Assembly (NCBI RefSeq): GCF_900116365.1
Contig: NZ_FPAG01000007.1
Location: forward strand, 62,001 to 126,000
Reading direction: 5' to 3'
Source of the DNA: Zhouia amylolytica
GTDB lineage: Bacteria > Bacteroidota > Bacteroidia > Flavobacteriales > Flavobacteriaceae
Length of the DNA stretch: 64,000 nt
Positions within the stretch are counted from its first letter, which is position 1; each line of letters starts with the position of its first letter. Positions 5,938 through 58,153 of the stretch are shown one piece after another. Position numbers and translations under genes: made by a program. The notes beneath the pieces are model-generated. The model did not search any database and was not told the DNA's origin. It saw nothing but the letters and a program-made list of their open reading frames with translations.

Positions 5938-6495
5938 ATGATTGAAATTATTTCTCAACCTTGGCCATGGTACGTTTCTGGATTTTTAATAGCCTTGATC
6001 ATGTTGGTTTTATTATTAATGGGTAAAAGGTTTGGTATGTCGTCTAATTTGAAAACTATTTGCACGATTTGTGGCGGGGGAAAGGCAAGTGATTTTTTTC
6101 GATTTGATTGGAGAAAAGATAGTTGGAATTTATTAATAGTCTTCGGAGCTGCTTTAGGTGGGTTTATAGCATCACATTATTTATCAGATAATACAATTCC
6201 TAAGGTTAGCGAAGCTACGATTGAAGCTTTAAGTGAAATGAACTTCAGTAGTGAGAATGCTTATTTGCCTAAAGAGTTGTTTTCACTGGAAGCATTCACC
6301 GATTTTAAAACGGTTTTAATTTTGATTATTGGTGGAATCTTAGTCGGTTTTGGTGCAAGATATGCTGGGGGATGTACTTCCGGACATGCAATCTCAGGAT
6401 TAAGTAATCTGCAAAAAGGTTCGTTAATTGCTGTTATAGGATTTTTTATAGGAGGTTTGGTAATGATTCATTTAATATATCCATTAATTTTTTAG
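5938..6495 (+). CDS. YeeE/YedE family permease, first of a pair
   Basis: A 185-aa membrane protein with the sulfur-transport (PF04143, YeeE/YedE) signature. The half-motif GARYAGGCTSGHAISGL near residues 139-155 holds the conserved Cys that in YeeE homologues lines the thiosulfate path. TM segments lie at about 14-29, 54-73, 121-142 and 160-182. It is a half-size member; the next gene is the matching half, 6 bp downstream, so the two probably work as a heteromer. The likely cargo is thiosulfate or another small sulfur compound, inferred from family only. Confidence 0.85.
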   Translation: MIEIISQPWPWYVSGFLIALIMLVLLLMGKRFGMSSNLKTICTICGGGKASDFFRFDWRKDSWNLLIVFGAALGGFIASHYLSDNTIPKVSEATIEALSEMNFSSENAYLPKELFSLEAFTDFKTVLILIIGGILVGFGARYAGGCTSGHAISGLSNLQKGSLIAVIGFFIGGLVMIHLIYPLIF

Positions 6496-6501
6496 ATCGC
6501 G

Positions 6502-6915
6502 ATGAAAAGAATTTTATATATCATAATTGGTTTAATTTTCGGAATTGTTTTATACAAGTCTGAAGCTGCATCCTGGTTTCGTATTTATGAGATGTTTAGA
6601 TTTGAATCTTTTCATATGTACGGAATAATTGGTACAGCTTTAATTTTTGGAAGTTTTTTTATTTGGAGTATAAAACGATTTAAAATCAAGTCTTTTGACG
6701 GGAGACCTATTACCATAGAACCAAAAGACAGTTCATTTCGAAAAAATCTTTTTGGCGGAATCATCTTTGGATTAGGCTGGGCTTTGGTAGGAGCTTGTCC
6801 AGGACCATTATTTGTGTTAATAGGAGCAGGGTTTGCACCTGTATTGTTGGTGTTAGTTGCTGCAGTATTCGGAACATTTTTATATGGAATTTTAAAAAAT
6901 AAACTACCACATTAA
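6502..6915 (+). CDS. YeeE/YedE family permease, second of a pair (DUF6691-like)
   Basis: A 137-aa membrane protein with four predicted TM segments and the paired motif GLGWALVGACPGPLFVLIG (about residues 91-109), again with a conserved Cys followed by Pro-Gly-Pro. This two-gene arrangement, a roughly 185-aa half then a roughly 137-aa half, is common in Bacteroidota and Proteobacteria. It starts 6 bp after the first half and ends 12 bp before the MenE-like gene, so all three may be one transcript although the third has an unrelated role. Confidence 0.85.
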   Translation: MKRILYIIIGLIFGIVLYKSEAASWFRIYEMFRFESFHMYGIIGTALIFGSFFIWSIKRFKIKSFDGRPITIEPKDSSFRKNLFGGIIFGLGWALVGACPGPLFVLIGAGFAPVLLVLVAAVFGTFLYGILKNKLPH

Positions 6916-6927
6916 AGTCTAAAGTTC

Positions 6928-8004
6928 ATGACACCATCATTTGATAAAATACATAATCAGTTTAAAATTAATGGTTATCATTACGATAGGGAAGGATTAG
7001 CAGAAGTAGCTTACAGTTTTATTAAAGAAGGAAAAGCTTATGAAAAAAGTATTGGTGATTTTCTTTTAGATTGGCTTAGTTCAAATAATGAAATTCAAGT
7101 TTTTACTTCGGGTTCTACTGGAAAACCAAAGCAAATTAGCCTTAAAAAGGAACATATGGTCAATTCGGCCATTGCAACCGGGGATTTTTTTGGCTTGAAA
7201 CCAGGGAATACAGTTTTATTGTGCTTGCCAGCGAATTATATAGCAGGTAAAATGATGTTAATCAGAGCTATAATCTTAGGGTTAGAAATTGATTTTGTTG
7301 AGCCAAATTTAGAACCTTTGAAAGGTATTAAGAAGTGTTATGACTTTGTTCCTATGATTCCTGCTCAAGTTGAGAAATCATTAATTCAAATAGAGCAAAT
7401 CAAAACGGTTATAATTGGAGGTGCTCCAATTTCTTCGGAATTATCTAGCAAGTTATTAGGTAAGAATACCGAATTCTATAGTACCTATGGAATGACGGAA
7501 ACAGTAACACATGTTGCGGTGAAAAAATTAAATCAATTGAAACCTGGTGAATCTTTTAATTTTAAAACGCTACCAAATGTTAGTGTATGTGCTGACGAAA
7601 GATCTTGTTTGGTAATAGACGCTCCATTGGTTTCAGACAAAAGAATAGTAACAAATGATGTAGTAAATATTATTTCCGAATCTGAATTTGAATGGCTAGG
7701 GCGATTTGACAACGTAATCAACTCAGGAGGTATAAAACTTTTTCCTGAAAAATTAGAAGATAAATTGTCTCAGGTTATAAAGGAGCGCTTTTTTATTGCC
7801 TCTGAACCTCATGAATCATTCGGTGAACAATTAATATTGGTGATCGAAAGTGATGAAGCTGATGCGAATGAGCTTTTCAGTAGTATAAGAGGCATAAAAA
7901 CGATTGAAAGATACGAAATACCAAAAAAAATCTACTCCATTAGCAAATTTGTCGAATCTGAAAATGGTAAAATACTAAGGCATGATACGCTTCAAAGTAT
8001 ATAA
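6928..8004 (+). CDS. menE: o-Succinylbenzoate-CoA ligase-like AMP-binding enzyme
   Basis: Adenylate-forming ligase of menaquinone synthesis, predicted to join CoA to o-succinylbenzoate. The P-loop-like A3 motif VFTSGSTGKPKQI is near residues 58-70, the YSTYGMTETVTHVA adenylate-binding segment near 190-203, and the hinge/ADP-binding stretch WLGRFDNVINSGGIKLFPEKLED near 255-277. At 358 aa it is short compared with E. coli MenE (451 aa), but such compact versions are usual in Flavobacteriia. No other men gene is in the window, so the substrate assignment rests on family and length. It is convergent with the DoxX gene only 3 bp away. Confidence 0.75.
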   Translation: MTPSFDKIHNQFKINGYHYDREGLAEVAYSFIKEGKAYEKSIGDFLLDWLSSNNEIQVFTSGSTGKPKQISLKKEHMVNSAIATGDFFGLKPGNTVLLCLPANYIAGKMMLIRAIILGLEIDFVEPNLEPLKGIKKCYDFVPMIPAQVEKSLIQIEQIKTVIIGGAPISSELSSKLLGKNTEFYSTYGMTETVTHVAVKKLNQLKPGESFNFKTLPNVSVCADERSCLVIDAPLVSDKRIVTNDVVNIISESEFEWLGRFDNVINSGGIKLFPEKLEDKLSQVIKERFFIASEPHESFGEQLILVIESDEADANELFSSIRGIKTIERYEIPKKIYSISKFVESENGKILRHDTLQSI

Positions 8005-53996: not shown

Positions 53997-54659
53997 CTAA
54001 ATATGTTCTTCTAACCATTTCTTTAAAGAAAAGAAGTTCTGTGGAGCGACACCATGTCCAACTGGAAATTCTTCATAAGTACAATCAACATCTAAAGCCT
54101 TCAAAAATCCTGGGGTCTTTTTGGCCCATTCTACCGGTATAACCTGATCAACTGTACCATGGGAAGCATAAATACTGAGTTTACTAAAATTATTAGTAGT
54201 ATAGTCAGGTGCAAGTATTCCCTCATTTATGTAACCGCTAAGAGCTACCACATTTTTAACTTTTTCAGGGTAAGACAGGGCAACAGCATAACTTAAAATT
54301 GAGCCTTGGCTAAAACCGAATAAGGTGGTATTCTCCTTGTCCAATTCATAAGCTTCACAAGCTTCATCTATAAAATCTTTAATTAGTTCTCTCGATTTTA
54401 TAGCTTGTGAATCATCACTCCACTTTCCATCTTCAGCATCGAAATGAATGGCATACCAAGCATAACCAAATCCAGACATTGAGTATGGTGCCCGAACTGA
54501 AATAATGAAGAGCTCTTCAGGAAGTTCATCAGCGAAAGAAAATAAGTCATCCTCGTTACTTCCATAGCCATGAAACATAAAAAGAACAGGTGTTTTTTCT
54601 TTTTTTAATCTAGGCTGTTTTATAAGGTGATCTAATGAAAGGTCTTGTATTTTTTGCAT
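53997..54659 (-). CDS. Alpha/beta hydrolase, phospholipase/carboxylesterase family
   Basis: A 220-aa cytosolic esterase. LFMFHGYGSNEDDL (oxyanion region, about 27-40), the nucleophile elbow GFSQGS (Ser near residue 120), Asp in SHGTVDQVIPV and His in FPVGHGVA form the triad of the Abhydrolase_2 family. It is the last gene of a four-gene overlapping operon: its ATG shares one base with the upstream gene's stop. The substrate is unknown. Confidence 0.87.
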   Translation of the reverse strand: MQKIQDLSLDHLIKQPRLKKEKTPVLFMFHGYGSNEDDLFSFADELPEELFIISVRAPYSMSGFGYAWYAIHFDAEDGKWSDDSQAIKSRELIKDFIDEACEAYELDKENTTLFGFSQGSILSYAVALSYPEKVKNVVALSGYINEGILAPDYTTNNFSKLSIYASHGTVDQVIPVEWAKKTPGFLKALDVDCTYEEFPVGHGVAPQNFFSLKKWLEEHI

Positions 54660-54988
54660 TATTGAATAAACTTAAACCATTTTTGAAACAATTCACCAAC
54701 CAGGGGAACTATCGTTTTTCTACCCTTTAGGGCTCCGGAAAATCCATAAACCCATAAAACCAATGAAAAGACCCAAAAACCATAGTAGGCGTAAATATTT
54801 TCAAAGAATCCAAGAATAATGGCAATTGAGATATATAACAAATGAATGCCAAAGGCTTGTCGAATATGGAAACGAGCAAATTCATTTTTTGATTCCATAT
54901 TCATAGAATAAGCAATTAAAGCTCCGGCAATGGTAAGGTAACCTATTATTGCTGTAGTTTTTCCTTCCTTTACAATTGAGTTATTCAT
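54659..54988 (-). CDS. Small membrane protein (DUF4870-like)
   Basis: A 109-aa protein with three membrane segments (about 12-29, 45-65 and 67-89). The segment NEFARFHIRQAFGIHLLYI resembles the F-H-x-x-Q-x motif of DUF4870/Tic20-like small membrane proteins. The start overlaps the dihydroorotase-like gene's end by 8 bp and its end meets the esterase ATG, so it is translationally linked. The function is unknown. Confidence 0.75.
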   Translation of the reverse strand: MNNSIVKEGKTTAIIGYLTIAGALIAYSMNMESKNEFARFHIRQAFGIHLLYISIAIILGFFENIYAYYGFWVFSLVLWVYGFSGALKGRKTIVPLVGELFQKWFKFIQ

Positions 54989-56237
54989 TGGTAATTAATT
55001 GTCCGTTGTTGTATATGCCGATAACTTTTCCTTTTAATCCTTGTCCAATAAAAGCACTATTTTTTGATTGAGAGTAGATGTTTTCTTTATCAAAAATATA
55101 TGTTTCTTCAGGGTTGAAAAGAGAAATGTCAGCTTTTTCCCCAAGTGCTATTTTCGAAGTATTAAGACCAAAACGTTCTTTCCCCTTGGTTAATAGTTCG
55201 ATGGTTTTTTCGGTTCCAAAAATAGTATTCAAGGCACCAAAGGCACTTTCAAGCCCGATAGTTCCGTAAAGCGCATGCTCGAACTCTCTTTTTTTCCATT
55301 CTACATCGATTGGATTGTGATCACTGGTCACAAAATCTATGATACCCTCTTTCACACCTGTAATAAGAGCTTCAATATCCGATTGAGTACGTAATGGAGG
55401 AAGTACTTTGTAATTAGCATCAAAAGTGTTTAAGACATCGTCGGTCAAAACCATATTATGAATGGCAACACTACAACTTACATCAAGGCCTTTTTCTTTA
55501 GCTTCCTTAATAAGCTGAACAGATTTAGCCGTTGAAATGGTTGGAATATGAAGTTTACCTCCTGTATACTCAAGAATGAATAAGTCTCTTGCAATATTTA
55601 ATTCTTCAGCTAGCGCAGGGATTCCCTTTAATCCTAGTTTCGTAGCGTTAACCTCTTCGTTAACCACGCCTTTACCCGCGATTTTCTTTTCAGAAGGAAA
55701 TGAAAGTATTAACCCGTCAAAGTTTTGAACGTATTGCAAAGCAATTTTAACAAGGTTAGCATTCGTAATTGACTTTTGATAATCACCAAAAGCAATTGCT
55801 CCTGCGCTTTTCATATCATATACTTCAGACAAATCAACACCTTCACTGTTTACAGTAAGGGCACCGATAGGGTATAAATTAACAGCATTACCGAGCGCCT
55901 TGTTCTTAAGAAAACCGATATCAGCATTAGAATCAATGACAGGGTTTGAATTCGGATTTACAGCTACTGAAGTAAATCCACTTTTTGCAGCCGTAAGTAA
56001 TCCATTAGCAATAGTTTCACGTTCTTCATAACCGGGTTCTCCGAAACTTACACTAGTATCAAACCACCCATTAGATACATGGAGTCCCTTAATACTAAGA
56101 ATTTTAGTCTCTGTACCTGGAGCGATCTCATCTTCTATTTTAGAAATAACTCCATTTTCAATAAAGATGTCTTTAGCTTTTAAGTGATGTTCACTTGAAG
56201 GATCTATTATTTTGGCAGCTTTTAAGAGGATGTTCAT
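54981..56237 (-). CDS. Dihydroorotase homologue lacking metal ligands
   Basis: A 418-aa amidohydrolase-fold protein, as long as class I dihydroorotase (PyrC), which normally closes carbamoyl aspartate to dihydroorotate. The first metal motif D-x-H-V-H-x-R-E-P-G reads D60-TSVSFGEPG: both His are Ser (62 and 64) and the Arg is Gly66. The usual AHCED is replaced by SFPSEK, the second His of HxxH[VI]ST is Thr (HIPTIST), and PHH reads IHN. Only the Asp-His of TSDHNP remains. The fold elements KVLPPLRTQ, ALAEELNIARDLFILEYTGG and TIGLESAFG are kept. Catalysis by the normal mechanism looks impossible; a structural or regulatory role is inferred. It starts in an ATGA overlap with the upstream gene. 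Confidence 0.85.
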   Translation of the reverse strand: MNILLKAAKIIDPSSEHHLKAKDIFIENGVISKIEDEIAPGTETKILSIKGLHVSNGWFDTSVSFGEPGYEERETIANGLLTAAKSGFTSVAVNPNSNPVIDSNADIGFLKNKALGNAVNLYPIGALTVNSEGVDLSEVYDMKSAGAIAFGDYQKSITNANLVKIALQYVQNFDGLILSFPSEKKIAGKGVVNEEVNATKLGLKGIPALAEELNIARDLFILEYTGGKLHIPTISTAKSVQLIKEAKEKGLDVSCSVAIHNMVLTDDVLNTFDANYKVLPPLRTQSDIEALITGVKEGIIDFVTSDHNPIDVEWKKREFEHALYGTIGLESAFGALNTIFGTEKTIELLTKGKERFGLNTSKIALGEKADISLFNPEETYIFDKENIYSQSKNSAFIGQGLKGKVIGIYNNGQLITNE

Positions 56238-58153
56238 TTAAAATATTTTAAGATGAGCGATTCAATAATTAAAAATATTAGTGCAAAAATAACAAACCAT
56301 TTCCAAAGCTCCTTCACTTTGTTTTCGGATTTTAAGTCTTGAAAAAATTCCGGAATAGACTCTGAAATGGTTATATTATTTAATTGATTGATATTTAAGT
56401 ATTCAAGATTACTTTCATTTCGGTTGGCATTAAAACTTATATTCTGAAGTTTTTCATCTTTTGTATAAATTCCATAATGCCCTTCGGTTGAAACACTGTT
56501 TGCAGTATTAATTCGAACCTTTTGACCATAATTCTCCTGGATAGGAATGAAATTATATTGATCATTCTTAATGGTTATGGTCTCATCCTGACTCAATGAA
56601 ATATTAAAATCAATATCCTCTTGAGCTCCCAGGGTATAATATAACGTTGGTTGAGATAAGCTTTTTTTACCCAAATTATAGAGTATTGGTACAATAAGTG
56701 GAGAGTTTTTAAAATTAGAATTTGATTCGTCTAAAGAAGCAGTAAAACTATAATTAGTTTTATTACTGATTAAAAAGGGTTCATTGTTTTCTAAACTCAA
56801 AACACTGTTAAAATTACCTGTAATATGAAAGTACCCCTGAACTTCCGGATACTGAAAGTTAGAAACGGGATATTCAAATACCCCATTGAACAGCGGGTGG
56901 TCAAAATTGATATTTGTGATTTTTTTACTACTTATAATAAGACTATCAAAAATAACACTCGGAATACCGGAAAATGATTCTTTTACAGGTTTGGAAATAT
57001 TTGGGATAAAGAGTGTGTTGATACCTTTCTTACTCAAATTGTTTAATGTATTAATCAATGAGGTGGTTGGTGTTAGTTGATTTATTATTATAAGTTGTTG
57101 CTTTTCTAAACGATTATAATCCAGTTTGTCAATTTGATAAGATTCGTAATTAAATTCATCTGTTGTGTATATTTTTTTTAAAAAGGAATCATCGGTATCA
57201 TTAACAGATAGAATATTAATTTTCTCTGGTTCGTTCACAGAAAAATAAAAGTTATTATCATAAGCTAGTCCATCATCAGTAATCGATATCATACCGCTAA
57301 CACCTGACAGATTGGTAACATCAAATATGGCTTCTGCAGAATTTTTGTCTTTAAAAGATACACTGGTTTTAGCAATTAACGAATTATTACTATTAAATAA
57401 AGAAACAGGGATGTTGTTATCTATTTTACCTTGTCTCGATAATTTTGTACTAAGTTGTTTTCGTCCCTCATTATCTTCAATTAGACTAATACTGTCAATA
57501 CTGATGTTGCTATCAATTATAGATTGAGATTTAATGAGGTTGATATTAAAATTCGTTGTCGTAAATTCAGATACCCGCTGATCAGGAATCTGAAAATCGG
57601 AAATTATGACAAGATTTTTAATGCTCGAACTATCCTTTGAAAATAGACTTTTAGCTTTTAAAAGTATTTCATTAAAATCGTATTGGTTTTGGGTATAGCC
57701 AATATTTAAAAGTCGCGCTTGAAGTTCACTTGGTCCTACCGACTTTAGTGTAAGGTCGTTGGTGAAAATAGCCACGTTATTATTTTTTGAGACATGGTCT
57801 ATTAGTTCATTAATGCTTCGTTGTAAAAGTGGACCATTTTCACCCCTTGCTTGCATGCTGTACGAGTTGTCCAGGTATATTATAGTTTCCGTTTCTGCAT
57901 CAATAAATTCTTTATTTGTGATAAAGGGTTGGGTGAACGCAACTATTAAAAACGAAAGGGTCAGAAGCCTGGATAGAAGAATTAACCATTTTTTTAGTTC
58001 CGAACTTTTACGGGTTTCAACGCTAATTTTTTTAAGTAACTGAACGTTCGTGAAAGGCGTTTTTTTGAACTTACGTAACTGAAATAAATGGACTATAATT
58101 GGTATAACCAATAACAGAAATGCCCAGAGAAAATCAGGATGTTTAAAATTCAT
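56234..58153 (-). CDS. BatA-like membrane protein with VWA-type domain
   Basis: A 639-aa protein with the BatA N-terminal module: FLWAFLLLVIPIIVHLFQLRKFKK (by segments, about residues 8-30), FTNVQLLKKI and a TM at about 56-75. A von Willebrand A-like domain follows (YLDNSYSMQARGENGPLL, a D-x-S-x-S-M MIDAS, about 93-110). The long C-terminal half is beta-rich and ends in a TM helix (about 616-637). Bat proteins are linked to stress tolerance and MoxR/Bat clusters in other bacteria; no MoxR gene is seen here. It is the promoter-proximal gene of the overlapping operon, ATGA-coupled to the dihydroorotase-like gene. Confidence 0.88.
   Translation of the reverse strand: MNFKHPDFLWAFLLLVIPIIVHLFQLRKFKKTPFTNVQLLKKISVETRKSSELKKWLILLSRLLTLSFLIVAFTQPFITNKEFIDAETETIIYLDNSYSMQARGENGPLLQRSINELIDHVSKNNNVAIFTNDLTLKSVGPSELQARLLNIGYTQNQYDFNEILLKAKSLFSKDSSSIKNLVIISDFQIPDQRVSEFTTTNFNINLIKSQSIIDSNISIDSISLIEDNEGRKQLSTKLSRQGKIDNNIPVSLFNSNNSLIAKTSVSFKDKNSAEAIFDVTNLSGVSGMISITDDGLAYDNNFYFSVNEPEKINILSVNDTDDSFLKKIYTTDEFNYESYQIDKLDYNRLEKQQLIIINQLTPTTSLINTLNNLSKKGINTLFIPNISKPVKESFSGIPSVIFDSLIISSKKITNINFDHPLFNGVFEYPVSNFQYPEVQGYFHITGNFNSVLSLENNEPFLISNKTNYSFTASLDESNSNFKNSPLIVPILYNLGKKSLSQPTLYYTLGAQEDIDFNISLSQDETITIKNDQYNFIPIQENYGQKVRINTANSVSTEGHYGIYTKDEKLQNISFNANRNESNLEYLNINQLNNITISESIPEFFQDLKSENKVKELWKWFVIFALIFLIIESLILKYFK

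Follow-up and report, generated by a model that had tools for sequence, protein, structure and literature searches.

A dihydroorotase homologue without metal ligands in Zhouia amylolytica and its probable role as an aspartate transcarbamoylase subunit in Bacteroidia

We describe a gene of Zhouia amylolytica (Flavobacteriaceae) encoding a class I dihydroorotase homologue that has lost its metal site, and we consider it probable that the product, a pseudo-dihydroorotase (pDHO), is catalytically dead and persists as a structural component of a class A2-like aspartate transcarbamoylase (ATCase; PyrB). In the proposed arrangement, dimers of the dead protein would hold PyrB trimers together in a complex of roughly 6+6 chains, pDHO would stabilise or activate PyrB within this complex, and dihydroorotase activity would be supplied by a separate PyrC encoded on another contig. 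The physical complex, the requirement of pDHO for ATCase activity and the stoichiometry in Bacteroidia are predicted by analogy with known systems. We regard it as unlikely that the protein is instead a regulatory or organising subunit that replaces the function of PyrI and carries a lineage-specific ligand pocket, or a bridge between PyrB and PyrC that channels carbamoyl aspartate.

The window, i.e., the whole stretch of DNA that was analysed, is 64,000 nucleotides long. The gene and the codons of its former metal site, the latter assigned by alignment, are located in it as follows.

54981..56237, minus strand: pDHO gene, 418 aa, class I dihydroorotase homologue
56040..56054, minus strand: codons 62-66 (S-V-S-F-G), formerly the HxHxR metal and substrate motif
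55779..55781, minus strand: codon 153 (Tyr), formerly the bridging ligand Asp153 (ligand role from PMC3880350)
55698..55700, minus strand: codon 180 (Phe), formerly the beta-site ligand His180; HCED has become SFPSE
55539..55541, minus strand: codon 233 (Thr), formerly the beta-site ligand His232
55320..55322, minus strand: codon 306 (Asp), the kept equivalent of Asp305

Translation of the window gives an intact reading frame with an ATG start and 0 internal stops. Ligand numbering and roles are those of the Aquifex dihydroorotase (DHO), where the beta site is dispensable for activity (PMC3880350). When the two proteins are aligned, the alpha-site ligands H61, H63 and D153 correspond to S62, S64 and Y153, the beta-site ligands H180 and H232 to F180 and T233, and the substrate residue Arg65 to G66; the second-His motif now reads HIPTIST and the PHH region IHN. 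All 5 of the 5 direct metal ligands are replaced, the equivalent of Asp305 (D306) being the sole survivor. The ligand set of active class I dihydroorotases (HxH, Asp/Lys, His, His) is thereby absent from pDHO, whereas every ligand is kept in 27/27 active class I sequences compared. Since the Aquifex beta site is dispensable, the case against catalysis by pDHO lies in its missing alpha site. Judged from these residues, the protein is probably a catalytically dead class I dihydroorotase, unable to bind catalytic zinc via the known ligands. S62, G66, T233 and D306 are invariant across 30 pDHOs of the window genome's family, so the loss of ligands is not a sequencing error or a matter of chance; chance or frame damage is rejected on this invariance and on the intact frame. 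Other positions, among them E71, E194, K247, R283, N393 and G403, are common to pDHO and the active class I enzymes and differ in the separate PyrC, which would fit retained scaffold or interface roles.

A sequence-only reading of the gene had described the changes of HxH to SxS (62/64), of Arg to Gly66 and of PHH to IHN together with the loss of AHCED and of the second His of HxxHxST, and the Aquifex alignment bears out each of them. Two points were absent from that reading, namely the additional loss of the bridging Asp153 (Y153) and the retention of Asp305 (D306). It had also held that fold and length are kept and that the gene, free of frame damage, is under selection, and it had proposed alignment with active class I enzymes and with an inactive dihydroorotase-like protein as well as a search for a second, complete pyrC. 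These statements stand on the evidence below, the second pyrC is found, and the inactive homologue of Sinorhizobium meliloti lacks the ligands as well.

The nearest solved relatives of pDHO are class I dihydroorotases, the best being that of Aquifex (E 8e-67, 34% identity). Against TIGR00857, the profile of active class I dihydroorotases, pDHO scores 265.3 bits, under the curated cut-off of 279.05, and its best NCBIfam match, NF006558, gives 317 bits against a cut-off of 645. The AlphaFold model (pLDDT 93.5, pTM 0.92) has as its top structural matches the Aquifex DHO chains of the DHO-ATC complex (4bjh, Z 55.3; 3d6n, Z 55.0), with an rmsd of 2.1 over 414 residues. Profile scores and model together place pDHO in class I by homology and fold; since the scores for other class I enzymes come close, the structural match is informative about the fold and not about the partner.

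That the gene is a decaying pseudogene would agree with the missing catalytic residues and with a protein that evolves ~3x faster than PyrB, but the reading frame is open in 41/41 genomes sampled from the family, length and fold are kept, and comparison with the sister-genome orthologue gives pN 0.14 against a saturated pS of 0.76, change being mostly synonymous. We reject this explanation, which is hardly credible given the family-wide frame and the low pN.

The genome contains a separate complete pyrC (L001:1447-2787, contig C6, 446 aa), whose product scores 735 bits against NF006688 (cut-off 535) and whose nearest solved structure is 2gwn of Porphyromonas gingivalis. In this PyrC, as in 2gwn, QxH replaces HxH (DDQVHFREPG). 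An NF006688-type PyrC is the only TIGR00857 dihydroorotase found in genomes of families f2, f11 and f12, and therefore the NF006688 type suffices. The single catalytic pyrB (L009) lies on C15 downstream of a pyrR-like gene, away from the pDHO gene, a separation that counts against the proposed partnership; its product carries the STRT, KGE, HPTQ and HPGP motifs. This PyrB belongs to the type whose partner elsewhere is a class I dihydroorotase, and no PyrI was found in the window genome.

The distribution was investigated across the phylum, in 395 genomes. Each of the 41 sampled members of the window genome's family has pDHO, 55-64% identical to the window protein outside the genus and 79% identical in the sister species, and most Bacteroidia families have it too. 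The ligands are lost in every Bacteroidia family first sampled (f1, f3, f4, f5, f7, f8, f10), with replacements that are specific to lineages in the alignment (SxS, NxN, FxH or FxD, RxS and others). Homologues from other classes keep all ligands, several of them directly beside pyrB, and are by sequence active dihydroorotases. The pDHOs of Bacteroidia form one clade with support 99, and the dead dihydroorotase has a single origin in this class. Whether this clade is placed with the proteobacterial (including alphaproteobacterial) pDHOs or apart from them, the tree rejects neither grouping; common descent with proteobacterial pDHO is usual for a class A2 pDHO and is not required. A new activity as a metal-independent hydrolase could build on the conserved fold and on Asp306, but such an activity is highly improbable, as no replacement set is conserved across Bacteroidia and the Asp305 equivalent itself is gone in f3 and f4.

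pDHO co-occurs with one type of PyrB. Measured against the PyrB of the window genome, the PyrBs of pDHO genomes are ~58-91% identical. Most lineages that have an active class I enzyme give 56-61%; f2 gives 36-41% and the PyrI genomes 32-37%. In the PyrB tree, the PyrBs of pDHO genomes share one clade with those of the lineages with active class I dihydroorotase, whose gene is often beside pyrB; the clade of PyrI-type PyrBs lies far from it. Of the genomes in which PyrB was read, pDHO or degenerate pDHO is present in 60 of the 67 with the matching PyrB type and in 2 of the 24 with other PyrBs, two doubtful candidates in f92 being counted (Fisher p = 5e-13, with phylogeny not corrected for). The P0001 scan of 295 Bacteroidia genomes, which at its threshold of E 1e-40 misses the degenerate pDHOs of f80 and f92, finds pDHO in 243 genomes and in none of the 11 with PyrI (11/11 lacking it; hypergeometric 2e-9, phylogeny again not corrected for). 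In genome G477 PyrB is foreign (33%) and pDHO is lacking, and its congener G408 has a 78% identical PyrB together with pDHO; replacements of this kind occurred in several lineages. Because the presence of pDHO tracks the PyrB type, a partner of ATCase is favoured over a new function. Of the two options that the sequence-only reading had left side by side, the non-catalytic ATCase partner is thus supported, also by the second pyrC and the family-wide conservation, and the new function is disfavoured.

Several genomes depart from the pattern or appear to do so. Four apparent exceptions in f80 carry ligand-less pDHOs, 25-31% identical to the best query. The proteins at L263-L266 (f80) and L267-L268 (f92) are extremely degenerate pDHOs with 24-31% identity to the best query and 0 metal ligands. 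Seven genomes with the matching PyrB gave no pDHO; 5 of the 7 are incomplete or highly fragmented, and G619 (100% complete; L213/L239) and G612 (98% complete; L198/L242) are not easily dismissed, where an assembly gap or a true loss may be responsible. G410 has a degenerate pDHO (L269) and no pyrB was found in it. Two genomes of f9 lack both pyrB and pDHO, and G072 is a third genome of the same genus. In G072 (L165) a different pyrB is directly followed by the gene of an active class I dihydroorotase that keeps its ligands, and the same arrangement is seen on a plasmid of Hymenobacter canadensis (L320).

Evolutionary rates offer a less specific link. The partial correlation between pDHO and PyrB is 0.78 in 36 genomes and that between pDHO and PyrC is 0.73 in a 21-genome set, with a carbamoyltransferase control near 0.1. 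As pDHO covaries about equally with both, PyrB is not singled out and the rates indicate a link to the pathway only; rate covariation as proof of a PyrB partnership was rejected for this reason.

The same co-occurrence data bear on the explanation that the metal-free pocket has been repurposed, e.g., for nucleotide or metabolite sensing, and that pDHO, instead of being a passive scaffold, regulates PyrB as a subunit standing in for PyrI. Not one of the 295 genomes sampled was found to have both pDHO and PyrI, and the replacement residues S62, G66, T233 and D306 are invariant in the 30 family members. However, these pocket positions differ freely among the other Bacteroidia families, and inside the family their conservation does not clearly exceed that of the remaining columns, so that we consider a sensory role quite unlikely and prefer the structural subunit.

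The genes around pDHO suggest a further possibility. They are the following.

56234..58153, minus strand: BatA-domain (TIGR02226) membrane protein gene, directly upstream; its TGA stop overlaps the pDHO ATG (ATGA)
54659..54988, minus strand: small putative membrane protein, 109 aa, downstream; conserved in the family
53997..54659, minus strand: carboxylesterase-like protein (Abhydrolase_2), downstream neighbour conserved in the family

The BatA gene is directly upstream of pDHO in f1, f3, f5, f7 and f8, which, with the overlap in the window, would fit a function of pDHO with the BatA-domain and small membrane proteins in the cell envelope, unrelated to pyrimidines. Yet pDHO persists in f4, f10 and L045, where no BatA was detected next to it, and the presence of pDHO follows the PyrB type. 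An envelope function is very unlikely on these grounds; the gene order BatA-pDHO is old but not obligatory, and we do not count the BatA-domain neighbour as part of the pDHO mechanism. On a 12.5-kb plasmid of Rufibacter tibetensis (L319), positions 6001-7281 encode a pDHO that lacks the ligands and bears the annotation dihydroorotase; a weak BatA-like match precedes the gene, and DUF4199 genes follow it.

Literature searches, whose reach was mostly papers available without subscription, found no paper on pDHO in Bacteroidetes. What is new here is a Bacteroidia lineage of a known kind of pDHO, with a gene unlinked from pyrB, and at least some members of this clade carry the annotation dihydroorotase despite the loss of ligands, as in the Rufibacter record. 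If the structural reading is correct, the ATCases of Flavobacteriaceae and many other Bacteroidia would be two-component enzymes of the class A2 type, pyrimidine prototrophy would be predicted to depend on the gene described here, and the repeated swap between two ATCase partners (dead dihydroorotase or PyrI) would become open to study.

Among the known systems, the P. gingivalis-type dihydroorotase (PDB 2gwn, NF006688) belongs to the same superfamily and is the type of the window genome's separate PyrC; unlike pDHO, it keeps the other metal-site residues, with QxH for HxH, and 2gwn is only ~23% identical to the pDHO model. The Aquifex aeolicus DHO of the class A1 DHO-ATC complex (PDB 3d6n, 4bjh) has the same fold (Z 55, 34% identity) but has an intact metal site and remains catalytically active within that complex. 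The product of S. meliloti smc01361, for which the name PyrX has been proposed and whose disruption causes pyrimidine auxotrophy (PMC5929573; NF006558/PRK09059), resembles the window pDHO in lacking the ligands and in the same change of Arg to Gly (GEPG), whereas its gene overlaps pyrB and the window protein reaches only 317 bits of the NF006558 cut-off of 645. In Pseudomonas aeruginosa PyrB by itself is monomeric and inactive, and ATCase activity is restored by pDHO (PyrC', the pyrX product of class A2 ATCase; PMC7053772). The window pDHO differs from the Pseudomonas protein in that its gene is unlinked from pyrB and follows a BatA gene, and in that it belongs to a separate Bacteroidia clade. 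It shares with the class A2 pDHO the class I fold, the missing zinc ligands, a separate complete and active PyrC and a PyrB without PyrI, and the role that we propose for it, by analogy, is that of the Pseudomonas protein, i.e., partner of an ATCase that has no PyrI.
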